Notes: generated from the sequence alone by a model not told the origin. Counted from the stretch's first letter, positions 19,354 through 45,849 are shown. The stretch: 64,000 nt of DNA from a bacterium (GCA_021777995.1 JAJYCW010000003.1:1-64000); one strand, 5' to 3'. Made by a program: numbers and translations.

Positions 19354-22300
19354 CTAATGTTGGCTAGGCGTATCCGGGTATAGCCGAGGCGCGTACGCCT
19401 CTTGATAGAGGTCTGTCGAGCCGAACGCGGTGCCCGACCAGAATAGCCATAACCTGCTGACTATTGGGTCTGCCATCGCTGCTACCTGCCCAACGTTTAC
19501 GCGATAGGCCATTGGAACGGAGGTTTCCGGGGTGGTTACGTCCCGAACCGTATTACCAGTTCCATCCTGGATAACAGGCTCACCGTTCACTACAGCGTAT
19601 TCGTAATCAGGATTTGTACTGACCTCATCTCCCCACGCGATACGATAGACCAGTTTGCCAGAGTTTCCGGCACCTCCGCCAACGGAGCCAGTGTAGCTTA
19701 CGTCGATAATACGACCCGCATCCGCTGTCGTGAAGTAGATGCGACCGCGTGCCCAATCAACCTCATACGGCCCATTAAGCGGCGCTTGATTGGGATCTGA
19801 AGGATCCACGGTCATGGTAAGAGACTGTATCTGCTGGTTTCCGTTTGCATCGGGAGCCGTGAGCCACACTGGGTAAGGTAGGCGCACCATTAATCGCAGA
19901 GCTTTAACGAACAGGCCCTGTGTCTGGGCACCACCGAGATCTGTTTTGCGATAGACTACCCACAAGCGATCTACTGGCATAATGCCACCGGAAGGTGGTA
20001 GGTATTGGCCGTTCGCACTAAACACCACTGCAGGTGCAGTATATTGCTGACGAGGATTGGCACTCGTATCCATAGTAGCAACCGGGCCAAAGGCGTCGCC
20101 AGTTACCCTGTTCCAGACCTGAGGCAACAACGTGGCAGGAATATTTGCTCCATATGCGCCGTAACCGCCGCCCGGAATGATATTGCTGTCGTTGCGTGCT
20201 ACAGATAGGTCACGGATCTCCGGAATGTAGGAGACCAGCAGCCGATCGTTGGGTGACGGTGCAATATTTGGGAAGGACACCGTGCCTGCGCCAGGGTTAA
20301 CGACCATCGCTCCACCTTGCAGCAGAGGTTGACCGTTTGTATTATTTACCGTTGCACCCGTTGTTGCGCTAGTTGACAGCACCTGATAGAAGATATCTCC
20401 ACTGGCAGGATCGAACTGACCCTGTGCCGGAACGGTCGAGCCGGCAGGTGCATTGAGATTGATCAGCCCCGAGTAGCTGCTTGTAGTACTGTCAAAGTGC
20501 TCAAGCTGTACTACAATGGGTGACGGAACGCCCGTGTACCAGCCGCTGTCGCGTCCAGCCCACGTGTTTGCGTCTCCATGCTGTTCAGCAAGCTCGGATA
20601 CCACCGGCGGCAGAGGCACTACAAACAGCTGCCCCATCTTCATTACAGGCATACCAGAGCCGTAGTTTTCACCGCGATAGATACCGAAACGAACCATAAG
20701 GAGGCGAACGCCACTCCTGCCTCGTACCTTGCCGCTGAAGTACACGTCCAGGCAGTCGATCCTACGCAAATCCTGAGGATTAGCCGGATCGAACGGGTTG
20801 TGCACTACCACCTGCCGGTAGACCACGGTGGGATGCGTGGCCGATGTTACCGCCGCAGGAAGTGGCAGCACTTGGGCGCCCAGGCGAGGATCATTTGCTG
20901 CACCACTGGTAATCCAGCCGTCTGTCGTTACTGGCGTACCACCTGCATTCAGCGTCGCGCCGTTGTTGGTGTACGCGTTCACGTTATAGTACAGGTGTGC
21001 CGCACCTGCGCTACCCGTGCCATAGAAAACATACACCATCTGCTGAGCGGAAGTACCTCGCGCGGCGTCCGCCTGCGTAAAGTTCAGTGCCACAGGTACG
21101 GGAGTCGCAGCCGGCAGCGACGGATCGTTCGGATAGGCAATTGGCGTCCCCTGTGGTGTAGCACCATTTAATGTCTGGTACAGGAGACGGTGATCAATAG
21201 ACTGCTGACCACCGACGGATTTATCCACCTGGCCCCGATAGAAAATGTATCCTAACGGATCACTACCAGGCGTAGTGGCTGCTCCCACAGAGTTCACATC
21301 AACCGTCTGCGTGACGGCTGGATCAGCGAACCGCAGCGTATCAATCGACGGCGTACCAGAGATGCCACTATCACCCGTGGAAGGAAAGAACGTAGTTGCA
21401 AGCCCACTAGTTAATGTGAGAAGCTGTTGAGGTGTTGACCACCACTGCGTGTTGACTGCAGTGCCCCCGGCCGTTACAGCATCGCCGCGTACGAACTGCG
21501 TCTGTCCGTTTGCTCCGGCGTAGCTAAACACCGCGTAAGGAAGTACGATCTGGCTGGCATCCAGATTCTCCTGTGCCGTGCCAGCCGCAGTATTGCGGCT
21601 CGACGACCAGAAGCAGACCAGGTTTGAAGGCGCTGTCGCCTGATTCGTCCCGCCGGGCACATACGCAAGAGCTGGAGACGTGTTGTATGGGCCAGGCTGC
21701 CCGCCTGAGGCCGATGTAAAGGCCAGCAGCGGATTGACTAGATCCATTTGGCTTAGACTGCCGGGCGTAACCCCGTTGGTTAGCCTATTCTCGATTACTT
21801 TCACCTGAATAGGCACGGCGTTCGATACAGGCTCCAGGATCCCGGCGTTCACCGTTCCAGTGGGATCGGTCAAACCCTGCACAGCTGATATGGAGCTAGT
21901 GTTGAGGATGCCGTCGTTATTAACTGGGAGACCAGTGGTACTTCCACGCAGGGTAGAGAGCCATGCCTGCCATTGAATGGGCAGTTCGTCCTCGTAGGCA
22001 ATAAGCCTTCCGGTGTACGTACCTACGGGCGTGCCATAAGGAACGGCAACACCGATCTCCGGCGACGGAAGCTGCACACCGGTATAGTTGTGTGGTACAT
22101 CGGGCACCGTTGCGATGGTACCAGATGGATCACCAGGCAACGGCTTATGAAGTGAAGGATAAGGAGCCTGTCCTCCGGGCCAAGCCGCACCTGGTATCGG
22201 ATAGAGCGAAACTGCACTCGTCTGACTGTCCGAAAGTGAAGCATGGTCAAACGAGGATACGAGACCGATGTTGCCAAGGCCTGGTCCGCTTGCATTGCTG

Positions 22301-25300
22301 CCCGCGAGACCAAACGGTGTAGCGAGAAGCCAGGGACTCAAGGTCTGATCCACTTCATCACTCTTCATTCGGGCGCTAACCGCGACACCGTTTGCACCGG
22401 TCTGATAAGGCGATGTGGCAAGCGAGTCCCCATTTATTGCTGCGCCGGGTAATCCAAACAGCTTTGCTATACGCAGGTCCACCAGGTTTACGTTGCTGTC
22501 GCTCTGCAACGTGAATGGCTGGAAGTACTTACCTATCTGGTTGGTTGCAGTACCGTCCCATGGACTTATCGAATTAGTGTACGCACCCACCCCCGTGGGT
22601 TCAAACGGCAGGCTATACGTACCGCCCGCGGCAGAACTGTAGCCCGCACCGGCAGGTTCACTGCCAAGGTCAATGGCTCCCTGAGCAATCTTCATTTTGA
22701 AGTCAGGCGCCACGCACACAGTAGACGTAAAGTCACGGGATGGCGCAGCGCGTCGGAAGCCGTTGGGCGGCAGGTTGGTGACCTGGCCGGGTAGAACCAC
22801 GTTCACCTGGAAGTTCTGGCCAACGTAGCCCAGTGCGGGGAACGAGGCAGCATTGATGTTAGTGCTAAGCCCTCCGTTACCGTAGGTAAGCATCGGGCCG
22901 TACACGGGATTTCCGGCTGCACCTAACACCGTTCCAGCGATATCGGTGTAGCTGTCGCCGATAGACACCCCGTTGAACGTGGCTATACCGGCATTTACAT
23001 TCGCAGGTTGGTATTTTGGTACGTTCAGCTGCAGCGTAAGTGGAACCGGCGACAGAATTCGATCTGCCACGTTAGGATCCCCTGCCGGTTGGGTAGGTGG
23101 CGTTAACACGCCATTAGAGACAACCACGTTGGCGCCGGATGGATCCGTAACCTTCACGGCAGTTGATGGTATGGCAGGATAGTCTGCAGAATCAACCCCG
23201 TTACCAGGCATGGTCTCCCACGGTAGAGGATTCATGACTGCATTCGAGCCGCCGTACCAGTTAAACTGTGGAACGTTGACCTGATAACGCAACGCGTTTC
23301 CCGTCACCTCGTAGTAGGCGCTTCGATCCATGGCATACAGAGCGGGAACGCGAGCACCCGCGCTGTTGAGTCCCTGGTAGGTAACGCTGGAGCCATCAGG
23401 TACCAGGTCCAGCGGCGCGAGCAGCGCCTTGTATGCGATAGTGCCGGGATAGCCCACGGAGGCGCCATTGCCGAACAGGTCCTGCAAATTGTTCACCGCG
23501 AGTTGTACAGAGCCGGCCCACCCCATGGTCTCGGGAGTCCCGGTGTTGTCCGCTACATTGTTGATCCCCACAGCGGTGTTCGCAGGATTGGTACCGGCAG
23601 TGGTAAGCGCGAGGGGATTTGTTATAAAGACAGGCCGCGCCCGGCCGCGCAGCGCCCGGTTATTCGGGGTACCAGCAAACCAGTTACCGTTGCCATCGGT
23701 CTGGGTAAAACCCACATAGTCATGCTGCCCGGCGCGCAGAATCTCCGAGTCGCGGCGGGCGTCCTCCGTTACGTTCGGCTGGCCCTGCTGCTGAATGAGA
23801 ATGGTCTGCTGGATGTGAGCCTGTGCCGCCACACGCACGCCTGCCAGGCCGGGAGTAAACGGATTTTGGGCATCGGGCTTAATTACCAGCGAATAGGTCG
23901 CCACCCATGGGAATACATTCTGCGTGGGTCCAGTGAGAAGCTGCACTGCCTGCAGGGTGTTGTCCCAGCCAGCGATGGAAAAATTGGTGCCCAGGGCAGC
24001 GGTGTCTGCGGGCCAACCATTGTTGGCAGCGTTAGTGAGCTCTGCTGGCACCGTAATGAGGACACTCCGTGCTGATCCTGGTTGGAGTACTCGGAAGGTA
24101 ACGGTTATGCGAGGAGGTGTGAGCCCCTGCTCTATTTTGCCCGTTCCCGCCTGAGTACCTTCCGGCTGGGCATGGTAAACGCCCCAGGCAGCCAGGTATA
24201 GGGTATCACCCCAATCTGCAGGTACGCCATTTCGAGGCAGCTGGGTGGAGCCAATGGGCCGGGCACCTAGATAATTACCAGTCGTGCCGACTGCTGGCGT
24301 TTCCGCGCCTGCAGTACCCGCCGGCTGCATAAAGTTCTTCCAGTCTGGCTGGGCATAGTAGTCAAGAAGTCGCAGGTCGATCGTAGCATCCGTTGAATTA
24401 CCCAGCGCCTCCGAAGGCGGTACGGTTTCCGTGGTACCGTTCCCCAAACCATTACTGTAGGCTCGCAGCTGGCCACCTTCATCCCCTTCTACAATGTATC
24501 CATTGGAAAGGGATGCCGTCGCAATTCTGGATGTGGAGCTGTCACTGTACTGCCATAGTGCCGGCAGCAGTGTGGTACCCGTACCCGTGCCATCGTCGAT
24601 GGCATTCATGCCAATAGCCGAAATTGCGCCACCGTCGTCGGCGAACATTACTGCGGGGAATGAATTGTTGGCCACTGTAGCCAGAGGCGTATTGTTGAGC
24701 ATTCCCTGCTGTGCGATGATCTGGGTAGCAGTGGGTGTGCACGTGGTCGTATTTGTGAACGCCGGGCTGGTGGAGTACAGAAGCGGTGTTGTGCCGTTGC
24801 CGTCCCCGGCAGGATCTGCTTCAATCGCATCCACTGTACCATCATTCTGCACAGCGTATACCATATCATAAGGTATGAGGTTGGCAGAAAGCACATTGAC
24901 CGTCGTGGAATTAACGACGATAGGTGCAGATGGACCAAACCCTGGTGCGAGCGGTGCAGTGGTGTTCGGATTGTTGGGGTCTACAGCCGGCGGATTAGTG
25001 GATGGCGGATAGACCCATGTAAGACCTGCAGTGGCAGGAACCTGACTGCCGAGTGGCCCGGTAACCGTTGCTTCAGGAATCTCGTAAACGCGCCCCCCAC
25101 TGCCGTCAGGTAGATCACTGGTGAATACCAGATAGCGCGCGGAGGTCTTACTACTTACAAAAGTAGCCAGTGACGAAATGCCGGCACCCAACCCTGACAC
25201 GGATATGCCGGGGTATGTCCAGTATTCACGAATACTGTTGTCGTAAACTGCCTGATTGTTGGCATTGATACTCTGGAAAGAGTCATGGTAAGGCAGCACA

Positions 25301-27726
25301 GCGTATACGCGCCCATCCGAAGTGCCGAACATGACCGGTTGCTCTGTTCCTGGATAGTTAGGATCAAAAGTCGGCGACCCGGAGATTAGCCCTATAGGGG
25401 TTTCATCTGGTATGTTAAACGTCTGGGTATACCCGCCGGCAGTGTCACCATTTACCCTGTGGAATGCGTCCGCTCCAAAATGGGGCCAGGTCCACAACCG
25501 CTGCGTCGTTCCCGGCGTAGGAATAGTCGCAGTAGTCGTCGTAACCGGAGTAACGTTATTATCTACCTCGGTTACGTTGATTGTCCCAAAATCGCCACGT
25601 CCACCAGCGTCAAAGGCCCACAATCTACCTTGAAGCGTGTTGGAACTTGTAACCGCCTGCGAACCAACAATCAGCTCCTGCGCTCCCGCGGTGTTACTGG
25701 GATCATTGACGAGGATGGGTGCCCACGCCATACCGCCCAGCGTAATTTGCGTATCTGTACGCGTAACATACGGCGTTGTGGCTGCATTGGCGGCAGTGTT
25801 CGTTACGATGTCCCCATCGTAATAGGGAATTGCCTGATCTGCCCCGAAGGTTGCAGTTGGGTAACCAGTGCGCGAATAACCGCCGAGATTCAGAGGTACT
25901 GTATAGTTAGGATCGTCCCAACCTGCCGGAGCATTGGGGGGAGCATTCGTGCCATTTACTGTCGTTGTGATGCCACCGCTTGAATTAGTAATCCAGCGCA
26001 CAGAAGGATAGACCCAATAGGCATTGGTTGTCCTGGTGGAAAGGTCACCGGGATCGACAACGCCTTTGCCGTCAAAGTTATCAAATGGATTGTTCCCTAA
26101 AGGATCAAGTGCATAGATATGACCCAATGAGCCGCTGGCATTCGTGGTGACGAAATAGACCATCGGCCTCACAACCCCATCGCGGCAGCGTACGTTAGCA
26201 AGCATCGGCGATGCAATGCACGTGCCTGTCCCGGCATCCGGAGTGGCAACGTAGCGCCATCGGACGCGGCTAATTGAGGGCAGGTTGGTAATGGTGGTAC
26301 CGGCTCCCACTGCCTCATCCACATTGCTCAGGCAGTAGAATACCGGCGCGGTTTGTGATGCAAAGGGGTCGTTGTTCGCAGTAAGGTTAGTTTGGGTGGG
26401 ATCCACAATAGTGGTTGTCGTTGTAGGAATGGTCTCTTCGCGTGCTGCGAACCAGATATTCTGGTTTGCCGATGGATCATTGGCGTCAACGCCCAATCCT
26501 GTTGCGACATTCTTGCTAGATACAACAGGCGCCAGAATTCGCCCGATGGCAGAAATTGGCCCCATATTGGTCGTATTCGCCACCGGCGTGACGCCGTTTG
26601 TATAAAGCTGTACACTAACTGGCACAAACCGTACGGCATCCGCCGTTACCAATGGTGGATTGGTGTAGATCGTTGTGTCGTTAGGGTTATCTGGTGTGAG
26701 ACGATAGAGGGACACAACTAGCTGATTCCCAGGGGTGCTGCTAAGATATGGGAAGAGTGCAGGTTGAACCGCCGCGGTCTGATTACCGCTTGCATAAGCG
26801 CCTACGGTTCTCCATCCGGGTCCGCCGCTCAGGTTCACCATAAAGATTCGGCTGTAGTCTGGATCATTGATACCGCCTGCCCCGGCGGCACCAGAACCAT
26901 AGTTCAAAGCTCCGCCGACGACAGTGTTATTCCAGCTCACGCGCACGAATGCATGCTGCAAATCAGGGTGAACAACGTTATTCCCATTTACCTGTGTAAT
27001 CGTGCCGTCACCGGGCGACCACACCTGCACCTCATATTCAACTTTTACATACTGATTAGCTGTAAGAGTGGGCAGGGTTGGTGTGCCCATTGACCACTCG
27101 GCTGTGTTGTTATCGTCAGCAACAAGCGCCTTCTGAACATTGGAATAGATGTCCGAAGTTACATACGGTAATGCCTCGAGGGTTGTGGCGCTTACCGCAT
27201 TGCCGTTGCCGTCTTCAATGTTCTGCAGTACCGGCACAGCCACGCCATAATCGAAGGAGTTCGCGTTCGTGGGATCGGTTATGTAACTAAATCCGCCATA
27301 CGGCACTCTATTTGCAGGTACTGGAATCCCAAAATCATTGCCGTTCCAAACTGCAATTGCATCAGCCGCCTGCTGGCCGTTACTCTCCACAACCTTGTTC
27401 GCAGGTAGATCATTAGGGTTGTAGTTGTCGGTCGATAGCGAGTAGTTGCCACCAACGCTGCCCGTTTGGGCTGCAATATCCGCGGTGGCCGGCCACACCC
27501 AGCGTCGGACTGCATGGAGCGGGTTATTGGCGCTGTCCGTAAAGGCATTATAGCCTTGGCGCAGAGCGAGACCGTTATTGAGCGTGTCCACTGTAGCTGA
27601 TCCACGGTCCAGCGTCCAGTCATCACCTGTGTAGGCGTACTGAGCGCGCGCACCGGCGCCGGCCATGGCGAGTAACAGCACACAGATGGCCGCATTTTTA
27701 ATGGCAAACAATGCCGATTGCCTCAT
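19354..27726 (-). CDS. Giant secreted protein (2790 aa) with PQQ-like propeller segments
   Basis: A Sec signal peptide is clear (NAAICVLLLAMAGAGARA, cleavage before QYAYTGDD). The mature protein is rich in Asn, Thr, Gly and Pro and almost devoid of long helices. Residues ~480-1100 carry repeated PQQ/beta-propeller-like motifs, such as FGTSDGRVYAVLPYHDS, VQNDGTVDAIEADPAG, DDGGAISAIGMNAIDDG and EGDEGGQLRAYSNG. Residues ~1200-2450 are long strand-rich regions of unknown type. Near the C-terminus two copies of a D-x3-G-x-[IV]-x-F...V-S-Y module occur (~2471-2503 and ~2649-2679). No LPXTG, PEP-CTERM or type IX sorting signal is seen at the end (DTPSQH). It is the last gene of the pilus-type operon, just before a terminator, so a surface structure or substrate handled by that machine is likely. 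Enzymatic activity is not evident. Confidence 0.8.
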   Translation of the reverse strand: MRQSALFAIKNAAICVLLLAMAGAGARAQYAYTGDDWTLDRGSATVDTLNNGLALRQGYNAFTDSANNPLHAVRRWVWPATADIAAQTGSVGGNYSLSTDNYNPNDLPANKVVESNGQQAADAIAVWNGNDFGIPVPANRVPYGGFSYITDPTNANSFDYGVAVPVLQNIEDGNGNAVSATTLEALPYVTSDIYSNVQKALVADDNNTAEWSMGTPTLPTLTANQYVKVEYEVQVWSPGDGTITQVNGNNVVHPDLQHAFVRVSWNNTVVGGALNYGSGAAGAGGINDPDYSRIFMVNLSGGPGWRTVGAYASGNQTAAVQPALFPYLSSTPGNQLVVSLYRLTPDNPNDTTIYTNPPLVTADAVRFVPVSVQLYTNGVTPVANTTNMGPISAIGRILAPVVSSKNVATGLGVDANDPSANQNIWFAAREETIPTTTTTIVDPTQTNLTANNDPFASQTAPVFYCLSNVDEAVGAGTTITNLPSISRVRWRYVATPDAGTGTCIASPMLANVRCRDGVVRPMVYFVTTNASGSLGHIYALDPLGNNPFDNFDGKGVVDPGDLSTRTTNAYWVYPSVRWITNSSGGITTTVNGTNAPPNAPAGWDDPNYTVPLNLGGYSRTGYPTATFGADQAIPYYDGDIVTNTAANAATTPYVTRTDTQITLGGMAWAPILVNDPSNTAGAQELIVGSQAVTSSNTLQGRLWAFDAGGRGDFGTINVTEVDNNVTPVTTTTATIPTPGTTQRLWTWPHFGADAFHRVNGDTAGGYTQTFNIPDETPIGLISGSPTFDPNYPGTEQPVMFGTSDGRVYAVLPYHDSFQSINANNQAVYDNSIREYWTYPGISVSGLGAGISSLATFVSSKTSARYLVFTSDLPDGSGGRVYEIPEATVTGPLGSQVPATAGLTWVYPPSTNPPAVDPNNPNTTAPLAPGFGPSAPIVVNSTTVNVLSANLIPYDMVYAVQNDGTVDAIEADPAGDGNGTTPLLYSTSPAFTNTTTCTPTATQIIAQQGMLNNTPLATVANNSFPAVMFADDGGAISAIGMNAIDDGTGTGTTLLPALWQYSDSSTSRIATASLSNGYIVEGDEGGQLRAYSNGLGNGTTETVPPSEALGNSTDATIDLRLLDYYAQPDWKNFMQPAGTAGAETPAVGTTGNYLGARPIGSTQLPRNGVPADWGDTLYLAAWGVYHAQPEGTQAGTGKIEQGLTPPRITVTFRVLQPGSARSVLITVPAELTNAANNGWPADTAALGTNFSIAGWDNTLQAVQLLTGPTQNVFPWVATYSLVIKPDAQNPFTPGLAGVRVAAQAHIQQTILIQQQGQPNVTEDARRDSEILRAGQHDYVGFTQTDGNGNWFAGTPNNRALRGRARPVFITNPLALTTAGTNPANTAVGINNVADNTGTPETMGWAGSVQLAVNNLQDLFGNGASVGYPGTIAYKALLAPLDLVPDGSSVTYQGLNSAGARVPALYAMDRSAYYEVTGNALRYQVNVPQFNWYGGSNAVMNPLPWETMPGNGVDSADYPAIPSTAVKVTDPSGANVVVSNGVLTPPTQPAGDPNVADRILSPVPLTLQLNVPKYQPANVNAGIATFNGVSIGDSYTDIAGTVLGAAGNPVYGPMLTYGNGGLSTNINAASFPALGYVGQNFQVNVVLPGQVTNLPPNGFRRAAPSRDFTSTVCVAPDFKMKIAQGAIDLGSEPAGAGYSSAAGGTYSLPFEPTGVGAYTNSISPWDGTATNQIGKYFQPFTLQSDSNVNLVDLRIAKLFGLPGAAINGDSLATSPYQTGANGVAVSARMKSDEVDQTLSPWLLATPFGLAGSNASGPGLGNIGLVSSFDHASLSDSQTSAVSLYPIPGAAWPGGQAPYPSLHKPLPGDPSGTIATVPDVPHNYTGVQLPSPEIGVAVPYGTPVGTYTGRLIAYEDELPIQWQAWLSTLRGSTTGLPVNNDGILNTSSISAVQGLTDPTGTVNAGILEPVSNAVPIQVKVIENRLTNGVTPGSLSQMDLVNPLLAFTSASGGQPGPYNTSPALAYVPGGTNQATAPSNLVCFWSSSRNTAAGTAQENLDASQIVLPYAVFSYAGANGQTQFVRGDAVTAGGTAVNTQWWSTPQQLLTLTSGLATTFFPSTGDSGISGTPSIDTLRFADPAVTQTVDVNSVGAATTPGSDPLGYIFYRGQVDKSVGGQQSIDHRLLYQTLNGATPQGTPIAYPNDPSLPAATPVPVALNFTQADAARGTSAQQMVYVFYGTGSAGAAHLYYNVNAYTNNGATLNAGGTPVTTDGWITSGAANDPRLGAQVLPLPAAVTSATHPTVVYRQVVVHNPFDPANPQDLRRIDCLDVYFSGKVRGRSGVRLLMVRFGIYRGENYGSGMPVMKMGQLFVVPLPPVVSELAEQHGDANTWAGRDSGWYTGVPSPIVVQLEHFDSTTSSYSGLINLNAPAGSTVPAQGQFDPASGDIFYQVLSTSATTGATVNNTNGQPLLQGGAMVVNPGAGTVSFPNIAPSPNDRLLVSYIPEIRDLSVARNDSNIIPGGGYGAYGANIPATLLPQVWNRVTGDAFGPVATMDTSANPRQQYTAPAVVFSANGQYLPPSGGIMPVDRLWVVYRKTDLGGAQTQGLFVKALRLMVRLPYPVWLTAPDANGNQQIQSLTMTVDPSDPNQAPLNGPYEVDWARGRIYFTTADAGRIIDVSYTGSVGGGAGNSGKLVYRIAWGDEVSTNPDYEYAVVNGEPVIQDGTGNTVRDVTTPETSVPMAYRVNVGQVAAMADPIVSRLWLFWSGTAFGSTDLYQEAYAPRLYPDTPSQH

Positions 27727-27805
27727 GGAGTCTCTTCCTCTATCTCACTTGGACCTGCCCACCTGGGCTCATCCTGTTTCATTAAACCAACCTTGCAACA
27801 ACAGA

Positions 27806-30800: not shown

Positions 30801-32722
30801 GGCTGGTAGATAAGGAAACTGTTGTTAGGATCGGTTCCGTTCGCCTCCAGCGGCTCACCCCGCGTCTCAAACCATGCACCGGCAAAACCTCCGGTTGCAC
30901 CCGCACTTACACCTTGCAGCGGCGCATACGCCACTAGATCCTGAGCACCGGTCGCCGCGTCGGTTACAAAGCCTGCTGTTACCGGTCCACAAATCGGCCC
31001 AAGGCCGGTGGAGGTGACACTAGACGGTGGTACCACCGATGACTCACCGCTGCCGAAGGCAGGAACTGTCGCGCCATTCGCAACACTGTTTGCAAAATCC
31101 ACAGCCTCAATCTGCCAGCCATTACCGCTGTAAACGGGAGCAAAGAGGAACCCACCTGCGTAGCCTGTTCCCAGGGTAGGCAGTGCACCCCCTGTGGTAG
31201 GATCAAGAGCGGTATCCGGCCCCCCAGATCCAGCGACCGAGAAGACGACCGATGAACTGGCGTTAGGTACTCCATTCGGATTATACGTAATGCCCTTCGC
31301 TACGACCGTGTTTCCGGTGGAAGAGGTCGCAGCAACGAATATGCCCTGGCCATTGGAGATAGTGCGTGGTGCGCCATACCTCCCGGAACCAGGTAGAGCG
31401 AGATTCCAGATTTCGTCGTAGGGTGTTCCCACGCTGTAGTCCTGAAGCCCGTTGTCTACACCGTTTGCACTGCCAAACCCTCCCAAACTTGTGCCAGGCG
31501 TTAGGTCGTAACAGTGAAGAAGGTTGTTACCGTCAATCGTAAATCCTAGTCCGTCTACAATGGACGATCCGCCCCCTATGTTGTTGGAAGTAGATGGCAC
31601 AGCACTCCAGGCGCTGGCGACCGTTGTCGGAAGCCTCTGCGGTGTTGCGCCTGCCTCATGACTCACTCCGCCAGCGGCACCCACCACGTTCACTGCAAGC
31701 TTCAGGTCACCGCTCTGGTCGCCCGTAAATTCGGCACCACTGACGGCACCCGTGTTCCGGAAGCCCTGAACACCCATATAGTTACTGGCTGGTGCTAGTT
31801 GCCCGGAGACGTACTGCAACAGCGCGAATGAGTAGATGATCTGGCCCGCACCATAGTTACCCTGGGCGATTACAACCTCTGGCGGTGCGGTAACAATTGG
31901 CTTAAAAAATGCTGGACTAAGCTCCGACATACCAGTCGACACAAATTGCGTGCTGGTGGCAAAGTAGAAACCATATAGCCCAAGAATGTCCTGGTACGAC
32001 ACCTTTAACGGCCAGTTAAGAATGTTCGCAGACGGATTTGGGTCACTAAAGTTTGGGCCAAAGCCTGGAATATGCTGCGTTACAAGTGGAATAAAGAAGT
32101 TGATGTCGGACCCGTAATTCTTAGGAGTATAATTGTAAACGCTCTCTAGTATCAGCGTTCCGCCTTGATCTACGTACTGCCGCAGCTTCTCCTTTTCGGA
32201 CTCGGAGAACAGCAGCCCAACAGCGGTGGTGCCCACATATCGCTGACCAGAAAGAGGCATATAGACAATGTTGTAACGGTCAAGGTCCGCCTGGGACATC
32301 GTGTCCAGGTTTTCCTCCCAATACGCCCCCATAGACTTGTCCACCGGCTGGCCAATCTGGAACTGCGCATATTGAGGCGTTCCCGCATTAAACGCAGGGT
32401 CGTTGGTACCGTTCGTGCGCTGCTTCCACGATTGATATATCGCAGCATTGATCACGGGCGGTGCGAGAGGATTCTGGATGTTCCAGCCTGCAGGCGTATA
32501 TCCCTTAAAATTGCTGACAGCATAGAACAGGTACGGCGCAGGATCCACCGGATAGATCACGTTATTATTATCTGCTTCGGAAGCACTACTCACCAGCACG
32601 CAAGCGTTGATAGTTCGCGTACTGCTGCTAAAGGTGATATTGCTCGCTAGTGCGTTCTGTGAAGAGAGCCCGGTTACTGCTGCCGCACCTATGGCTGCTA
32701 ACAGAATAAAGCTGCGTTTCAT
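27806..32722 (-). CDS. Large secreted protein with a DUF4159-like N-terminus and NHL-type repeats
   Basis: I chose the ATG at 32722 because it gives a typical signal peptide (MKRSFILLAAIGAAAVTG, cleavage after NALA) with GGGA nine bases upstream. An ATG at 32752, coupled to the upstream stop as ATGA, would add ten residues. Residues ~100-220 (DRYNIVYMPLSGQ, SEKEKLRQYVDQGGTLILES) resemble the Rossmann-like DUF4159/glutamine-amidotransferase-like module used by envelope proteins. The middle is beta-rich and Asn/Thr/Gly-rich. Residues ~1200-1300 carry NHL-type propeller motifs (YIAADTNNNRIVWFDSAGNV and YIIADSGNYRAMEVVDG). No C-terminal anchor or sorting signal is visible. The protein is about 1638 residues long. 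It sits between the PilX-like gene and the 2790-aa gene; no function beyond surface location is supported. Confidence 0.78.
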   Translation of the reverse strand: MKRSFILLAAIGAAAVTGLSSQNALASNITFSSSTRTINACVLVSSASEADNNNVIYPVDPAPYLFYAVSNFKGYTPAGWNIQNPLAPPVINAAIYQSWKQRTNGTNDPAFNAGTPQYAQFQIGQPVDKSMGAYWEENLDTMSQADLDRYNIVYMPLSGQRYVGTTAVGLLFSESEKEKLRQYVDQGGTLILESVYNYTPKNYGSDINFFIPLVTQHIPGFGPNFSDPNPSANILNWPLKVSYQDILGLYGFYFATSTQFVSTGMSELSPAFFKPIVTAPPEVVIAQGNYGAGQIIYSFALLQYVSGQLAPASNYMGVQGFRNTGAVSGAEFTGDQSGDLKLAVNVVGAAGGVSHEAGATPQRLPTTVASAWSAVPSTSNNIGGGSSIVDGLGFTIDGNNLLHCYDLTPGTSLGGFGSANGVDNGLQDYSVGTPYDEIWNLALPGSGRYGAPRTISNGQGIFVAATSSTGNTVVAKGITYNPNGVPNASSSVVFSVAGSGGPDTALDPTTGGALPTLGTGYAGGFLFAPVYSGNGWQIEAVDFANSVANGATVPAFGSGESSVVPPSSVTSTGLGPICGPVTAGFVTDAATGAQDLVAYAPLQGVSAGATGGFAGAWFETRGEPLEANGTDPNNSFLIYQPKGDRAVIPWFDNSAGNASLLPVIYVSVVDSAGNLLSMQVYQANNSNINILWGQHKPVDFPTNEPITPGQNFMEIEINPAAMPALPAGQTYVVSADYALDWPGDPINGTNLVPSDLARITSRGFTLYNPSASPGANYLAGGLSMDPTGSLLFTSHPTGILDNSGGNATPLQDRVYSVTDQFSGTTLGGITPAGTTVNWMWSPTNAEVFDGSQIKQRLTYTASNGTVYPVSGFKVVGKPAVFNGTVYVVGTCFIEGAGQGNAAVPATVVLALASSINPVVTLNPAIELSTTAGAAQTPISVQQPDLERSTVGSPAYSTLTPNRDYVINKQIDNTGAVYATAIVLRSLQPVGNRDTFNAAMPLFISNGTTGQRTEIAGTSGFGPLDNLQWAVVYPEASVVGDNTALQSQETFSPPSSGLTASTSGLFYGTQAGTIVQVNLTTASAVKTPGAVDIATAQAAGTLTNASGAAVAQSIIYPPAAAQGNLLVSTPGGVADLNSRSTVIMDNSRLLSVDAGGNVEWMINSTSLSVEVRSPFDSFPSAQTSVPFSGATAVHEVAPGQYIAADTNNNRIVWFDSAGNVLQNISAVRNDLMVLPQGQSLSLSGPTDVQFYTETSASGNTTVSYTNPVTGVIYSYTGPLTLYHYIIADSGNYRAMEVVDGLNPITGAFIQLRPTSGTSAPVLLYHQVVFATASLATQNQHWRYRTIEQFFDPVSGVESLIAAISNVTPASYQGLAGLGTAAADVQGSDGGAVLFLARTGPWAGTGTQQAKIIQIATSINVPNGAGGYIQQPIQKPTFFKQFYLQVNGVSQLRYLLCDANGCYELQADPSGKALDVDWMLTSSDYAYLTGRPLDALSLQRIPSTDVYTDASGTHLAPHYLITNGYKGNDGAVEWFNTMYGAVPPNVADGYIHGEVFEIRSTPYYSGGYRQAVNVLYTQNGLGEMVQNPSSAIVQLIPNEQLIQTNTAGTVIKAPIRRALGTAGSGSDSTTLSGPTYSFRP

Positions 32723-32748
32723 AGTATTCATTCCCGCTGATTCTCGTA

Positions 32749-35700
32749 TCATAGCTGATCACTGTCATCTGGCAGGCTGCCTACCGGAACTGTACCCTGG
32801 CCGGAGTAGAGTGCATTTGGACAGACTGGCAGGTCTGGTATTGCCGGAAGTACCTGTTCTATCGTGTATGCGCCTCCGCCAGGAACCGTAATCTGGTAAG
32901 TCCGCGATCGGATAGCTCGCTGCTGTCGGGTTAGATGGTTGGCAAGCGGTATTAACGTAACGTCTGTTGGATCGTAGTAGGGCATCGCAAGGATTGGATT
33001 GTATTCATAACGAAGACCGTTCGTGATGGGTATATCCTGGTTAATACCTGCTTGTGTCTCCAGCGGGGTTCGGTAATTCAGCGATGTATCCTCCCCGGCA
33101 ACTAACGACGGTGGGTCCTGGTTGAACAGGTGCATGTCCGGTACCTGCACACGGGCCGCAGTGTTCCCGTAATACTCTGTGGAACCATAATATGTCGGGA
33201 TGTAACCCCATCTCGCTAACCATGCAGCTTGGTCACCGGCAGACGCAGTGTAATTTTCTGCAATGGACCCAAACATGGTGATCCTTATGTCGGTTGGTTC
33301 CCCATAGAACGGAAACACATCTTTGGCCTCACGTTCTGGCGAAGGCGTTGCGTTGCTGGCATCCTTTACGTCTGCGCCATTGTACGAGATACGGATATCC
33401 CCACGTAACTGATAGGCCGCCCTGCTGTCTGCTTTGTTAGGATTAAACGAATATCCTGGGATAACAAAGAACGAGCGATTCTGTGCGTATAGCGTCGCCT
33501 CTATTCGGATGTCGAGTGGAACCACCGCAGCGCCACCAAGCTTCATGTCTGTCAATTGCTGCCCGGCCAGTGCTGCTGATCGATCAAATTGGAAGCGAAA
33601 AACGTTGTCGTATCCAGGGGTTACCAGGCCCGGAAGCTGAGTGTTCCCGGGATACAGTGGCAGCCCGAGCATCTCCGTGCCAACAACGCCATACGTTCCG
33701 GCCGCGGGCGCACTGCTAGGCACAGTGTTGAAAGGAAACTGGTAATATGCATTACTGTATGGCGCGGCAACTCCGGGGTTAAGAAGCAGATTGTATGGTG
33801 CCACCCCATTACCGACAGCACCCTGGCGAACCATCAGGAAAAGCGGCGAGCGGTTGCCCTGCACGGAATAGCTTTGCGAAGGATCTACACCCCACGAGAA
33901 TGCCATATCCATCGCAGACGCGCCTCCCTGCCCCAGTTCAGTGTAGAAGGGCGGATTGCTGTCCTCGTTCTCCGACGACCAGGTGTTGGGCGTTTGCGGT
34001 CGCATGAACATTGTGGTATTCACGGTAACATAGTCTTTCGCAAGTATCGCCAGGGTAGAGGCATGTTCCATTGTTACCGCGCCCCCACTTACATATCCAT
34101 CCCCACTTACGAGGTTGCCATCAATGTAGGCGGTTCCGCCCGAAACAATCGTAAGGTGCACACGCCCAAGCTTGCTTACTGTTGCACTCTCGGAGGTATC
34201 GGCGGTATTCGTGATGGCACCGTAAACGCCATGCACCTTGACATTTCCTTCGGCAAACAGCACCAGATTAACGCCGTAGGAATTCTTGTCACCAAATGGG
34301 CTATTGGCTCCGCCATTGTCGCCATCGTGGCGTAGCGGCATCAGATGAATCCCATTCGGCAGCACCGTGTTCATTCTGGCATAGTCCCACAATGGCAACA
34401 CGATTGTCTCGCTCTGCGTACCATCCGGCAGTGTAAACGGAACTCCGTCATCACGCGTTAGCTGAATGGTGTTCCCTAATAGCAAAATGTCTACACCCGG
34501 CGCACGGTAGTAAGGCCCGTCCCATCCATAATTCACACCGTTAATAGTTGTGGCTAGATGGGCCTGCGGATTAAGCCAATCGCTGCGAAGTGAATAGGCT
34601 CCATTGAGGCCAGCTACCGAGGTTTCCCGTTGCTGATCTGCAAAGTTATTCACGTATATGCCGGTACCATAACCATCCGCACCCGTATTAAGCAGCGCTC
34701 CGGCGGAGTTGGTGTACCAGGTACCGGAGTCACGCGTGAGTGCCCGGTAGCGAAGCACGCCGCTTCCGTCCAAAGTGTCAAGGCTTGGCGGTGTAAGCCG
34801 CGGGACGGCCCGCTCAATGCCATTTACGTCCGGTCCGCCGTTCGAGTCTCTTATAATCCCATCGTAACTGTTGAACTGCCCATTACTAGGGAGTATGGCT
34901 CCCGCAATGTTGCTCACCTGGGTTACAGGAGCCTGATCAATCTCTTCATTAAGGTAAGCCGGGAACCGCGCATCATTTATGGTTGTGTACAGACTTGTAT
35001 TCCGGCTGGGGTCAAGGCTTATCGTCCCATTAACCAACACGCTCTCTTGATTAAGCGCAGTAGTTCCACCACGGTGCCCTTCGTAGAGGTATGTATCACT
35101 ACCGAACTTAAGGTTACCATTTACGTAGATAGGAAAGCCGTACAGAGCCTGAGGTCCGTTAGAACCAAGATTACTCACTCCGCTGCTGTAGGCGCTGAAT
35201 CCGAGCATAGGGTTACCGAGTACTGTTGCAACATTGTGGCCAATAGCGGGCGTTCCAATATAATTAGCGACAGTGCGCATGGTGGCACCTGTCACATACA
35301 GCCCGTAGTCGGTGAGACCAATCTGCTTATATGCGACCAGTTCCTGCCGTAAACGAGGCGAATTTCCCGTGGGCACAAAGACTGTGGGGTCGCTGCCTGG
35401 TGGGTTGGGCAGTGCGCCGGGCCTGCCGACCGACTCAATAACAAGGTTACTTCCGCTCGGATTATCAGGACAGGGATCGTAAGCTACGCGCACCAGTGCG
35501 CGACCGCCAGGAACAGAAATACGCGAGAAGCCCCGTACCAGCCAATAGATATCTGGGTCCTGATTGTTGATGGGCGTAGACGGCGTAGGGCGCCAATCCG
35601 CTCCCTGTGGTGAAGTATTCAGGTTCTGATTGCAGTAGTCTAACCCAGCCTGGGCAAGTGTAGTTGCCTCGCCGCTCTGTTGGGAGCGGCCGCTCTGCTG

Positions 35701-35838
35701 GAGGTTGCGCGCAATTCGAGTGACAAACACACCGCCCAGAAACAACAGGGCGAACAGGACAATCAGCGCAATAATGAGCGTCTGACCGCGCCTGGAGCGG
35801 TTATAACGCGAATTGTGATTTCGGTTGCTTTGCACCAT
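32749..35838 (-). CDS. PilX-like minor pilin with a very large C-terminal region
   Basis: The N-terminus has a basic stretch, then RRGQTLIIALIVLFALLFLG and the hydrophobic stem of PilX/GspK-type proteins (RIARNLQQSGRSQQSGEATT, ALAQAGLDYC). That is the PilX N-terminal pattern in which no FTLxEL leader is seen. It predicts an inner-membrane helix that packs into a pseudopilus. The remaining ~950 residues are beta-rich and contain repeated IYVNGNLKFGSDTYL, VLVNGTISLDP and AYIDGNLVSGDGYVSGGAV strands, a pattern like a beta-helix. Typical PilX is about 200 residues, so this is about five times longer. The start ATG is at 35838. The stop overlaps the ATG at 32752, and it follows the PilW-like gene by 68 bases. 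Confidence 0.8.
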   Translation of the reverse strand: MVQSNRNHNSRYNRSRRGQTLIIALIVLFALLFLGGVFVTRIARNLQQSGRSQQSGEATTLAQAGLDYCNQNLNTSPQGADWRPTPSTPINNQDPDIYWLVRGFSRISVPGGRALVRVAYDPCPDNPSGSNLVIESVGRPGALPNPPGSDPTVFVPTGNSPRLRQELVAYKQIGLTDYGLYVTGATMRTVANYIGTPAIGHNVATVLGNPMLGFSAYSSGVSNLGSNGPQALYGFPIYVNGNLKFGSDTYLYEGHRGGTTALNQESVLVNGTISLDPSRNTSLYTTINDARFPAYLNEEIDQAPVTQVSNIAGAILPSNGQFNSYDGIIRDSNGGPDVNGIERAVPRLTPPSLDTLDGSGVLRYRALTRDSGTWYTNSAGALLNTGADGYGTGIYVNNFADQQRETSVAGLNGAYSLRSDWLNPQAHLATTINGVNYGWDGPYYRAPGVDILLLGNTIQLTRDDGVPFTLPDGTQSETIVLPLWDYARMNTVLPNGIHLMPLRHDGDNGGANSPFGDKNSYGVNLVLFAEGNVKVHGVYGAITNTADTSESATVSKLGRVHLTIVSGGTAYIDGNLVSGDGYVSGGAVTMEHASTLAILAKDYVTVNTTMFMRPQTPNTWSSENEDSNPPFYTELGQGGASAMDMAFSWGVDPSQSYSVQGNRSPLFLMVRQGAVGNGVAPYNLLLNPGVAAPYSNAYYQFPFNTVPSSAPAAGTYGVVGTEMLGLPLYPGNTQLPGLVTPGYDNVFRFQFDRSAALAGQQLTDMKLGGAAVVPLDIRIEATLYAQNRSFFVIPGYSFNPNKADSRAAYQLRGDIRISYNGADVKDASNATPSPEREAKDVFPFYGEPTDIRITMFGSIAENYTASAGDQAAWLARWGYIPTYYGSTEYYGNTAARVQVPDMHLFNQDPPSLVAGEDTSLNYRTPLETQAGINQDIPITNGLRYEYNPILAMPYYDPTDVTLIPLANHLTRQQRAIRSRTYQITVPGGGAYTIEQVLPAIPDLPVCPNALYSGQGTVPVGSLPDDSDQL

Positions 35839-35906
35839 CTCAGCTCTTCTCTTCTTGTTTTCTCGAAGCTAAAACACGCGGAGGTTACCGCTTTTAGACG
35901 ACACTA

Positions 35907-38069
35907 TTACCGCTGCAGGTTCCGTACGTCCACCACCTGAGTAAGCGATGTCTGTTGGGATGCTGCAGTGCTGGGGTCGTATAGCTGTGCGTCAATGCTG
36001 ACGGACATTTGATCCCGCGTTACGTAGTTGGCTTGGACCACGTCGCCGGGAAGGTTATCCTGGAACTGGTACGACACTTCTACCGGATCGGCAACTACAT
36101 CTGTCCCACCGACGTTCTTAAAGCCAGGAAGGCTGTTTGGCGGATAGATGTTATTTACTGGGTCTGAGGCTACATTTGGCTGGTTCACCGAGTCCGCCTG
36201 AGAGTCAAACTGCAGGTAGCCAACCTGGAGCCTTGGATCGCCATTCTGAAATCCAGGCAGGTTGGTATAGTTAATCTTGTATTCGTTAGGTCCGATGACC
36301 CCCGTTAGTGCCGCAACCCTACGATATTGAATCCGGTAACCATAATGTGGCCCTGGTCTCTGGTCTGGCCCATATACGCGTTCGCTACCCGGAACGATTG
36401 AGGCATTGGGGAGACGCAGAGCAGGTTCCGCCGCAGCAGGCAGCGTCCCATTGAGCGTTCCGGACCCGTATGCGGACTGTGCTAGCTGCGACAACAAAAG
36501 GTATCTGCTTGCATACGTACCTGTAAGACCAGTATTGATTGCATTTGGATCGTATTGCTGAGGAGCGGAAACCACGCCCAATGTAGCCCACTGGGGAAAT
36601 GCGAAATTGACCGTACCGCTTACCGGATCCACAGAGAATGCCATTTGCACTGCAGGAAGCTGGTTGAGATTAAACAGGCCCAAGGCGTTAATCTGAGGGC
36701 CAACATCGGTAAGCGTGGAAGGATTCGGCGCTGCAGCGCCGGGCGCAACGGATTGAGCGACTATGTGCGCCAGCCCATCCGCCCCAATGTAGTATTCGTA
36801 GTATGTTAACGGATTTTGACCAAGTGGGTCACCACCGTTTACCGACCGATATACGTTCACAGTGAAGGGGGACGACCAGGCTCCATATTTCGAAACAAAA
36901 ATCGGTGCGGCTGTCGTGGGCGCCTCATCTCCAGCTGCCGAAGTGTTGTTTGGTGTCAGGTTCTCCGTCGAGACCGCTTTAGGTGTAAACGTAACAAGCG
37001 GGCGAACGACCGGCAGGTTATTACAGTACTGAAGGGTTCCATCGTCATTCCGCAACATGGTCACCGCATCAGCCTTATTCGTGGGGAAGACGGGGCTCGC
37101 AACAGCAGCCCAATTTTCCCAGCGATAGACGATATTGAGTGGCATGCCATGCTCCTGAGCGATACGCTGCCAGCCTGCTACGCCCCAGTGCGGATCACCG
37201 GCCTTAAAGGACGGGTCGTCAGAAGGACCTGCCGGCGTGCTGTCGTAGAAGAAATTGGGATCGTTTAATACCAGTTGTCCCTGCTCTGAGTCCGTAATGG
37301 TGCCCGGTGACGCCGGATTCTGCGTATGAAATAGATCAAGGTTTGGAATATAGCTCTTGGTTGCCGTGTTATAAATGCTCGAAGGAAACTCAGCCTTGTA
37401 CAACGTTGTACGGTTATCCGCATTCGAGGTGGACGGGTCAGCCCACCGGTTAGCGTAACCGTGGAAGGTCGTTCCGTCGGAAGCCACCGGCATCCCATCC
37501 TGTTTGGCGCCACTGGTGTCCTGGCCAGAACGGTTGTCGCGGAGTCCCACAAAATACCGCATTATGACCCTGCCAGGCGCCGCGGGCAGTGCGATACCGT
37601 TCTGACCTGCAGGATAGATCGGCAAACCCGTAGTTGGGTCGGTTTGCGTGCTGCCACCCGTTTGGTCCAGCTGACGAGCAGGCATTACCATGTCCACCAT
37701 CGCATTCGGAAGTAACTGCAGGCCCGGAGTACCCGTCTGGCTGTACACCCATAGGTTAATCGAGGAGGCTGCGGTGTTATTATCGTATACCCACGCGGCA
37801 TCGCCAAGATCCGCAGTGATTTCTCGCATCGTATCGCGTGCAGCAGCCTGGCTCTCTACTTGGGTTCCAGCTTCGCTTACCAGATTGAATGAATCGGTAA
37901 GCGGTTTCACGACCAGGATTAGCAGCACCGATGTGATTGCGATAACGACTAGTAGTTCTACCAGCGTAAAGGCCGAATACCTGCGTACACGTGGGCTGCG
38001 GCTGACGAGTTGTCCGTTGGGATAGGATGTCATAGTGAATTCTCTATTCAGATTGCCAGCGCTCTTCAC
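35907..38069 (-). CDS. PilW-like prepilin with a large C-terminal region
   Basis: A type IV prepilin leader is present. RRYSA is followed by [19 protein letters not shown]; the residue before the cut is Ala rather than Gly, which prepilin peptidases tolerate. The helix continues into LTDSFNLVSEAGTQVESQAA and then a PilW-like start of the globular part (REITADLGDAAWVYDN). At 720 residues it is two to three times the usual PilW length. The region near residues 473-508 contains FSVDPVSGTVNFAFP, the module also found in neighbours. The start is GTG at 38069 in a GTGA overlap with the PilV-like gene, with GGAGG six bases upstream. An ATG at 38033 lacks such a site. It should be processed by the pilD product of the same operon and serve as a minor pilin. 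Confidence 0.82.
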   Translation of the reverse strand: MKSAGNLNREFTMTSYPNGQLVSRSPRVRRYSAFTLVELLVVIAITSVLLILVVKPLTDSFNLVSEAGTQVESQAAARDTMREITADLGDAAWVYDNNTAASSINLWVYSQTGTPGLQLLPNAMVDMVMPARQLDQTGGSTQTDPTTGLPIYPAGQNGIALPAAPGRVIMRYFVGLRDNRSGQDTSGAKQDGMPVASDGTTFHGYANRWADPSTSNADNRTTLYKAEFPSSIYNTATKSYIPNLDLFHTQNPASPGTITDSEQGQLVLNDPNFFYDSTPAGPSDDPSFKAGDPHWGVAGWQRIAQEHGMPLNIVYRWENWAAVASPVFPTNKADAVTMLRNDDGTLQYCNNLPVVRPLVTFTPKAVSTENLTPNNTSAAGDEAPTTAAPIFVSKYGAWSSPFTVNVYRSVNGGDPLGQNPLTYYEYYIGADGLAHIVAQSVAPGAAAPNPSTLTDVGPQINALGLFNLNQLPAVQMAFSVDPVSGTVNFAFPQWATLGVVSAPQQYDPNAINTGLTGTYASRYLLLSQLAQSAYGSGTLNGTLPAAAEPALRLPNASIVPGSERVYGPDQRPGPHYGYRIQYRRVAALTGVIGPNEYKINYTNLPGFQNGDPRLQVGYLQFDSQADSVNQPNVASDPVNNIYPPNSLPGFKNVGGTDVVADPVEVSYQFQDNLPGDVVQANYVTRDQMSVSIDAQLYDPSTAASQQTSLTQVVDVRNLQR

Positions 38070-40090
38070 TGCGAACCTCCAATCAAGGTAAGCGAACCTC
38101 CAGGACGAAATTCATCGTCGTCAACCTTGTGCCAGAAGAGATCCTGGCCAGGCGTCAAGTTATCGTGCCAAACGACACGCGCCTTAATTGAGTTGCCTTC
38201 CACAGATCGGAGCGCAAGCCCGGTAGGCACCGTAGAGAGTGCTGTCGCGTTCGGCACAATGGCGCTAACGTCTACGTAAACCATAGGAAAGCCACCCACC
38301 TGCTGCACGAGCGTCCCGATTTGGGCAGTCACCTGATAGGAGTGCCCATAGGTTGTGGGATCCGCTGGATTAAAGCTCGGTAGATTGGTAGCGTAATAAA
38401 CATCTGTCAGCGTAACCGTCTTCCCCTCCTCAGAAGGAGAGAAGTAGACTCGCGACGTCGAACCACCCAAAGCTCCCCCACCAATATAGTAGGTGTCTGA
38501 AGTTGGCGCCTGACCAGCAGCGGCAGGGGTGTATTGAGCGGCCGCCTGCTGCAGCTGCACGCCCCATGCGCGATGTGCTCTGTAGAGAACACGCAGCGGT
38601 ACGCCTTGCAGATTATTTGACTCAATGTAAGTCTGCTGGAAGGTAAGGATGCCATTCTTCGCGTCCACCGTACCTACCGGCAAATCCGTGCCAGGCGAAT
38701 ACGGTGCCGCCGGGTTGTAGGTGTAGATTGTGCCGTTTTTGGCATAGTACATCGGGAGCCCAGTGGTTCGATTCACGATAACAAGGTCTGCCTCGTCCAG
38801 TGTAGTGTCACCGGGCACATCGTGGTACAGCCCATCATAGGTTGTCTGATCGGTCATTGGATCACCCTGTTGGTCTATACCGCTAACCGACAACTCCAGG
38901 TCATAGGGCCGGCTGGTGGGGAAGCTGCGATCATCCCGCAGAATGTGGTTGTCATACACTAGATAATCAACGTACACCTGTAAAGGCTTTTGTGCTACTA
39001 ACCCACTACCGTTTACATCGGCCGCTGCCCGTCCGAGCGGATTAAAGATCAGCGTTCCAACATTCGCATTCCCAGTCTCCTGTGGGGTTAGCCAGGCATA
39101 TTCGTACGGATCACTGCTAAACGGTTGATTAAGACCTGGTGTAGTCGAGACTAACCGGAACCTTCGTGAAACCTGATCACTTCCCGGGAAGATGGCGGGA
39201 AGTGCCGCATTTGATAATCCGGGAGGACTTATTACCGTCGTATTGCTACCGTTTATCGCCATCCATTTCGGCTCCACTATCTGGCCAGGCTGTGGCGCAG
39301 GTACGTCTGGAACCTGGATCTGGATGGTTATAGCACTGGGCGCTGTCGCGCCAGAGGCATATCCCTGGTATGTCATCAGAAACGTCCGGTAAGGTACGGC
39401 ATAGCCGGAATTTGCGATACGAGGATAGAACGCAATGGCGCCCCGGGCATAGTCGATCGCATAATCCGACGGCGATGTCAGCGTGGGGTAAGCAGACGGG
39501 TTGTCAGTGGTTGGCTGCGCGCTTTCCACAACCGGTGTAAGGTTGCTTCCGTGAACCACGAGACTGTCACTGGGCACATTAGAGACCGTACTAAAGATAT
39601 TGTAAACGGGACCAAGCTTGAGTAGATGAACCGCCGGGTTAGATGCAGGAACCGTGAACGTCTCACCATGTACATATTTGATACGGTTAACATTGGAAAA
39701 CGAGTAGAGCGGAAAGCCGACAGGAAGAGTAAATCCCAGTAGGGACTGAAGTTGCGCGAGCTCTGTCGTGGTTGCTGGAGCCAGGTTATCCGGCAGCACT
39801 GCAGGGATATCCACGATCTGCCCGTTTGCATCAGGGAGGCCTGCATCAATATATTCTGCAGGTGTCTGATACGAACTCAGTGCCGCGGTTGCCATCGCCT
39901 GCGCCTTACTGATGTTTGCAGTGCGCTGGATGGAGAGGAAACCATACGGGAAGAGCCTTGCTACTGCGAGAATCCCAATTACGAGAATCGCCATGGTTAC
40001 CAGAACTTCTACTAGAGAAAAGCCGCGGTGGGTCCGGCTGCTTCGCCGAAGGCCAATTTCCCTATTAAGCTCGCGATTGCCTCGCCTCAT
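38066..40090 (-). CDS. PilV-like prepilin with a large C-terminal region
   Basis: The leader SRTHRG|FSLVEVLVTMAILVIGIL is a classic prepilin cleavage site, with Gly at -1 and Glu at +5 of the PilV type. It is followed by ARLFPYGFLSIQRTANISKA. At 674 residues it is about four times a typical PilV. The globular part contains three copies of a strand module: near 207-243 (IDYARGAIAFYPRIANSGYA), near 337-378 (GTLIFNPLGRA...YVDYLVYD) and near 472-508 (VDAKNGILTFQQTY). A TTG at 40099 opens the frame earlier, but GGAG is too close to it. The ATG at 40090 has GGAG 11 bases upstream, so I chose that. It overlaps the PilW-like gene by four bases, arguing that the two are made together. Confidence 0.82.
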   Translation of the reverse strand: MRRGNRELNREIGLRRSSRTHRGFSLVEVLVTMAILVIGILAVARLFPYGFLSIQRTANISKAQAMATAALSSYQTPAEYIDAGLPDANGQIVDIPAVLPDNLAPATTTELAQLQSLLGFTLPVGFPLYSFSNVNRIKYVHGETFTVPASNPAVHLLKLGPVYNIFSTVSNVPSDSLVVHGSNLTPVVESAQPTTDNPSAYPTLTSPSDYAIDYARGAIAFYPRIANSGYAVPYRTFLMTYQGYASGATAPSAITIQIQVPDVPAPQPGQIVEPKWMAINGSNTTVISPPGLSNAALPAIFPGSDQVSRRFRLVSTTPGLNQPFSSDPYEYAWLTPQETGNANVGTLIFNPLGRAAADVNGSGLVAQKPLQVYVDYLVYDNHILRDDRSFPTSRPYDLELSVSGIDQQGDPMTDQTTYDGLYHDVPGDTTLDEADLVIVNRTTGLPMYYAKNGTIYTYNPAAPYSPGTDLPVGTVDAKNGILTFQQTYIESNNLQGVPLRVLYRAHRAWGVQLQQAAAQYTPAAAGQAPTSDTYYIGGGALGGSTSRVYFSPSEEGKTVTLTDVYYATNLPSFNPADPTTYGHSYQVTAQIGTLVQQVGGFPMVYVDVSAIVPNATALSTVPTGLALRSVEGNSIKARVVWHDNLTPGQDLFWHKVDDDEFRPGGSLTLIGGSQ

Positions 40091-40173
40091 CGTTCTCAAA
40101 TCTCCATACCGTGTTCACAGAAGTTTAAAATAAATCCACTTTTGGACGCCCGGTTGTACCGTTCTGTTCCCGC

Positions 40174-41172: not shown

Positions 41173-41206
41173 GGTCGTCTCCATCGTCAATAACCTGTCG
41201 TCAAAA

Positions 41207-45787: not shown

Positions 45788-45849
45788 GAATACTCTCCGG
45801 TGCACAGGCTTGCCTCCTCACCCACTCGTGCAGAAGGCGCCTGATCATT

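Follow-up and report, generated by a model that had tools for sequence, protein, structure and literature searches.

A small beta-domain recurring in minor pilins and a giant propeller protein of a putative Chthonomonadaceae type IVa pilus-tip operon

The window analyzed here (JAJYCW010000003.1:1-64000; 64,000 nt of an incomplete draft genome) is best explained as holding an operon for a type IVa pilus, in a member of the Chthonomonadaceae (Armatimonadota). The last five genes, which encode PilV-like, PilW-like and PilX-position proteins and two giant proteins of 1648 and 2790 amino acids (aa), probably represent a tip operon in which one accessory beta-domain is shared by the minor pilins and a protein in the PilY1 position. 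Two oversized minor pilins and the 2790-aa protein would each bear copies of this domain, which is predicted to consist of a strand-turn-strand hairpin (VDxxxGxIxF), a loop or short helix, and an xVxYxY strand, its full form being preceded by PxSExVxxxG. A sequence-only reading of the same DNA had proposed six copies of such a module in these three proteins, and a module common to all three is supported here by cross-family profile matches, by the recovery of the same sites with an external profile, and by a matching order of predicted strands.

Evidence for a shared module

The strongest evidence comes from the external profile, A7, because it contains no pilus sequence; its 60 positions come from 12 domains at the N-termini of proteins that are predicted to reside in the outer membrane in other Armatimonadota. 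Over 57 columns and with a probability of 93.7%, A7 matches PilV residues 156-246, a full module named V1 (39362..39634; like all copies and operon genes described here on the minus strand, with PilV-like residues counted from the TTG start at 40099), which contains the hairpin YAIDYARGAIAF at 213-224. It also aligns to PilV residues 472-507 (73%) within module V3 (472-509; 38573..38686) and, in the C-terminus of the 2790-aa protein, to residues 2635-2680 (90.9%), module G2 (19687..19824), and 2464-2502 (63.5%) within module G1 (2464-2503; 20218..20337), the alignments of V3 and G1 starting only from the middle of the profile. The score was 49.0 against PilV and 46.2 against the 2790-aa C-terminus, versus maxima of 20.4 and 21.8, respectively, over 60 column shuffles. 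When A7 was searched over the whole genome in six frames, three outer-membrane-like proteins were followed only by V1 (E 0.016) and G2 (E 0.031) at E<=1. In these three proteins (L161, L162 and L163, on contigs 196, 197 and 156), the full module lies close to the N-terminus, and one of them has two copies. A7 gave no module match in the PilX-position protein and no confident one in the 1648-aa protein.

In profile-profile comparison with hhalign, windows of 50 residues were each set against the other two families, and the 106 background windows reached a maximum of 24.1. V1 (PilV 213) matched G2 in register with a score of 33.6, while V3 (PilV 476) matched W1, G1 and G2 in register with scores of 29.4, 25.7 and 24.4. 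W1, the region of hairpin SVDPVSGTVNFAFPQW at PilW residues 477-492 (36594..36641), found V3 and G1 in register as a query, and G2 as a query detected, again in register, V1, V3 and an additional site at PilV 550-564. This last site, scoring 30.5 and thus above all 106 background windows, belongs to a partial copy, V4 (PilV 548-572, SRVYFSPSEEGKTVTLTDVYY; 38384..38458), which is absent from the sequence-only reading. Five copies (PilV 213 and 476, PilW 479, and residues 2472 and 2652 of the 2790-aa protein) outscore 105 or all of the 106 background windows, with G1 as a query only tying the background maximum of 24.1. The recurrence of the module therefore stands, by conservation and profile-profile comparison, for five of the six proposed copies. 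The sixth, V2 (PilV 345-348, GTLIFNPLG), scored 15.0, which is at background level, and was rejected as unproven; by architecture only, it may be a doubtful, diverged copy spanning PilV 299-386 (PGSDQV ... GTLIFNP ... VYVDYLVYD; 38942..39205).

All six strings quoted in the sequence-only reading are present, at PilV-like 215, 348 and 478, PilW-like 480, and 2476 and 2656 of the 2790-aa protein, its residue numbers being 5-11 too low. The pattern [VI][DN]x(2-3)Gx[IVL]xF has five matches in the three proteins and none in nine other window proteins, with 0.07 expected across the three from residue shuffling. This count proves little alone, because the pattern was picked after the sequence had been read, and orthologues were therefore gathered from 60 relatives. 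In the resulting alignments of 29-30 sequences per protein, the hairpins are retained in essentially every orthologue, and the order's other families often have a motif nearer to the ideal YxIDYxxGxIxF...xVxYxY than the window's own copies. The hairpin YxIDYxxGxIxF followed by the xVxYxY strand is found at V1, V3, G1 and G2, and the hairpin only at W1. The upstream PxSExVxVxGxxL strand is aligned for V1 (156-246) and was recognized by eye only for V2 and for W2, a possible expanded copy at PilW 557-668 (PGSERV ... NEYKINYT ... GYLQFDSQ ... VEVSYQFQ; 36066..36401), which is kept in the orthologues displayed and whose profile score is not significant. A second short motif, PGSExV, is common to PilV 303-310 (39172-39195) and PilW 558-565 (36375-36398); the pair is among the best background scores of PilV versus PilW, and the motif is similar to the upstream portion of the full module.

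The predicted structures agree with the common fold that had been suggested, since V1, V3, G1 and G2 share the order strand, turn, strand, short helix or loop, strand. In the model of the 2790-aa C-terminus (predicted local distance difference test score, pLDDT, 73; predicted template modeling score 0.75; numbering offset by 2309), strands were predicted at 164-168, 173-175 and 186-191 for G1 and at 345-348, 353-356 and 364-373 for G2. The same order was predicted around V3 and V4, with the V3 strands at 450-455, 460-463 and 477-482 of the PilV model (numbering offset by 24). In addition, the 2790-aa C-terminus (19354-21080) contains related hairpin repeats of the type LWVFWxSTRxGxxDLYY at residues 2222, 2582 and 2754; G1 and G2 sit between them and may therefore resemble insertions between repeat units.

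The five-gene cassette as a candidate tip complex

On the minus strand, the gene order is PilB, PilT, PilC, PilD, two prepilins, PilV-like, PilW-like, PilX-position, 1648-aa and 2790-aa, and from this order the pilus-tip setting proposed in the sequence-only reading is plausible. According to a previous study, PilY1 of M. xanthus is encoded with FimU, PilV, PilW and PilX, and together they form the priming complex and the pilus tip (PMC7541494). Similar to this type IVa arrangement, pilV, pilW, pilX and propeller genes here follow the same order beside pilB, pilT, pilC and pilD; unlike it, the pilins are much larger, and two giant NHL and PQQ propeller proteins are present versus one PilY1. 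By this likeness, the last five genes (pilV, pilW, pilX, 1648-aa and 2790-aa) would most likely encode a priming/tip complex with oversized, modular subunits, and the shared beta-domain would most likely act as a repeated spacer or accessory unit, making the exposed portion of the tip subunits larger. Export, tip location and function of the cassette proteins are inferences, the latter two drawn from gene order and the literature.

The sharing of modules between pilins and PilC/PilY1 proteins is a described strategy, in which pilins gain extra domains and the PilY1-type protein carries domains of the same kinds (PMC8179133), as seen here. Unlike the modules described there, the one in these proteins is given no name by Pfam and is present in several copies. 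The best reading of the cassette is that of a variant of this modular-pilin/PilY1 scheme.

The PilV-like modular minor pilin (P0005, 677 aa; 38066..40099) was recognized by its N-terminus (N_methyl, 3.8e-7; PilV TIGR02523, 6.4e-6, under the family cut-off), and so was the PilW-like one (P0004, 720 aa; 35907..38069; N_methyl, 1e-5). The latter also matched Verru_Chthon cassette C (TIGR02599) at 1.1e-7, under the cut-off and at the N-terminus only. The PilX-position protein (P0003, 1029 aa; 32749..35838) gave PilX_N at E 0.44 only. The 1648-aa protein (P0002; 27806..32752) contains an NHL-type beta-propeller, its profile A2 matching NHL-type designed Pizza propellers (2e-13) and the NHL domain of brain tumor protein (5e-5). 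The 2790-aa protein (P0001; 19354..27726) carries a PQQ-type propeller at about residues 470-1130, its profile A8 matching designed PQQ-type propellers (2.7e-31) and 3hxj (4e-10), ahead of the C-terminal hairpin repeats with G1 and G2. Both propeller proteins are encoded after pilX and are thus PilY1-like by position. The reading frames of PilV and PilW, and of PilX and the 1648-aa protein, each overlap by four bases. Besides the prepilin N-termini, scans of the five proteins against Pfam and NCBIfam returned only a weak piece of DUF4159, located at residues 147-210 of the 1648-aa protein.

The order of the five cassette genes is kept, with similar lengths, in all 20 relatives compared, although in the two most distant of them one or two genes were assigned by position and length only. 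Named Armatimonadota contigs show the same cassette, and orthologues were matched in 59 of 61 genomes for PilV and PilW and in 31 of 61 for the 2790-aa C-terminus. Literature searches found no published description of this cassette. The cassette is a concrete, phylum-wide candidate for a pilus tip complex in a poorly studied phylum, whose proteins are left nearly blank by automatic annotation, the giant ones being nearly unannotated in Pfam and NCBIfam.

Relatives of the module and rival explanations

Over 121 Armatimonadota genomes, a profile of the copies found mainly the PilV-like and 2790-like members of the cassette. Weaker matches fell at the N-termini of proteins predicted to be secreted or to lie in the outer membrane, in which the module is fuller (GPYxLSxxxIxxxSExVxVDGxxLxRGxDYxIDYxxGxIxFxxPVPxxxxIxVxYxY). 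When five of these were scanned, one matched Porin_4, one DUF2460 above the cut-off, and another DUF2460 below it. DUF2460 (PF09343; Rcc01695, 6tba), a family that includes distal-tail proteins of gene transfer agents and phages, shares a module of the type VxxxGxxLxxxxDYxIDYxxGxIxF. It matches 10 of the 12 A7 members at profile positions of about 125-175, and one relative's full-length DUF2460 protein matched A7 at an E-value of 1.4e-7, calculated for a small local set. Apart from this module, DUF2460 is absent here, and the whole family had no match in the three pilus-cassette proteins even at E 1; the pilus copies are linked to it via the outer-membrane-protein profile, not by a Pfam match of their own. 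A weak likeness was also found to SprA, the 36-strand outer-membrane barrel that serves as a translocon in the type 9 secretion system (PMC10994853), which A7 matched at E 2e-4 (6h3i/6h3j; best piece, residues 696-727). Pfam SprA_N had no match in any of 21 relatives, nor in any control, which makes this search uninformative. With relatives in outer-membrane, DUF2460 and SprA proteins, the module appears scattered, as a general beta-domain and no invention of the pilus. It is a general-purpose block and shows shared parts, not a new mode of pilus assembly. One small unnamed domain links pilus-tip, outer-membrane and phage-tail proteins, and its addition to domain libraries would improve the annotation of many giant surface proteins.

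Several results weigh against a PilY1-like tip operon with a shared domain. The PilY1 family PF05567 had no match in P0001 or P0002; a genome search with it gave none either, but was uninformative since the controls stayed silent too. In a search of their own genome, single hidden Markov model profiles made from the 2790-aa protein only or from PilV only failed to recover the other protein at E<=1, so the expectation that a profile would find the other copies failed with single profiles and held with profile-profile comparison; in single-profile scans of the window proteins, the claimed sites rank first or near first, though not significantly. Both PilW copies, W1 and W2, are weak, A7 against PilW scored only 21.3, marginal to the shuffled maximum of 19.2, and the A7 domains were first located with a pilus-derived profile, which makes A7 independent of the pilus sequences and not of that search. 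Model quality is poor for PilV (mean pLDDT 56), also at V1 and V2, and better around V3 and V4. At E<=0.001, Foldseek returned nothing for the 2790-aa model in PDB or among viral models, nor for the PilV model in PDB.

One alternative is convergence, in which VDxxxGxVxF would be favorable in any beta-rich protein and the hairpins would share no ancestry. The weakness of single-profile scans across families fits it, as does a 36-position motif profile that, against PDB, picked only short hairpins of propellers (strictosidine synthase) and SPRY domains, matches that were judged coincidental. However, the 57-column alignment of A7 to V1, its score far above the shuffled maximum, the six-frame search that yields only V1 and G2 beside outer-membrane proteins, and the conservation of the motif across an order make convergence rather unlikely. 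The module might also be a ligand-binding, e.g., carbohydrate-binding, adhesive unit of the tip, as modular pilins and PilY1 proteins often bear binding modules (PMC8179133) and the same kind of domain occurs in surface and tail proteins; yet no binding residues and no lectin match were found, and we consider this role unlikely.

It is decidedly improbable that the cassette forms a distinct Armatimonadota type IVa tip, with PilY1 replaced by the two giant propeller proteins and with the repeated DUF2460/SprA-like domain making the contacts between the tip pilins and the cap protein. Least credible is the strand swap or tip-assembly role raised by the sequence-only reading; under such donor-strand assembly, PilV, PilW and the 2790-aa protein would complete each other's sheets at the tip through their modules. 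A single operon does carry a single module in these three proteins, with none detected in PilX or in the 1648-aa protein, but the module is found in unrelated settings without such partners, and the monomer models would give each module its own hairpin and following strand. Since it also occurs in predicted outer-membrane, DUF2460 and, weakly, SprA proteins, its sharing does not imply that the three pilus proteins pair together, and the proposed role is unsupported.

Other genes of the operon and the window

The type IVa pilus system is represented by PilB, PilT, PilC, PilD and prepilins. The assembly ATPase PilB (45850..47628) scored 618 bits against TIGR02538 (cut-off 676) and 2e-131 for T2SSE, and the retraction ATPase PilT (44510..45805) scored 493 bits against TIGR01420, above the cut-off of 319, so that a type IVa pilus is favored over a type II secretion system. 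The platform protein PilC (43197-44417) matched NF052607 at 1.6e-128, under its cut-off, and the prepilin peptidase PilD (42125-43186) matched A24_N_bact at 2.1e-28. Two GspG/PilA-like prepilins with long C-terminal parts adjoin the cassette at 40174-42037.

Prepilin N-termini related to those found here also occur in the Verru_Chthon cassette (TIGR02596, TIGR02598 and TIGR02599). Membership in that cassette was rejected, as the matches cover the N-termini only and lie far under the cut-offs (17.6 of 51.4 bits for TIGR02598 and 31.5 of 256.5 bits for TIGR02599). Finally, a bacterial alpha-2-macroglobulin of 1601 aa, with MG2, bait region, TED and bMG10, is encoded at 12441-17246.

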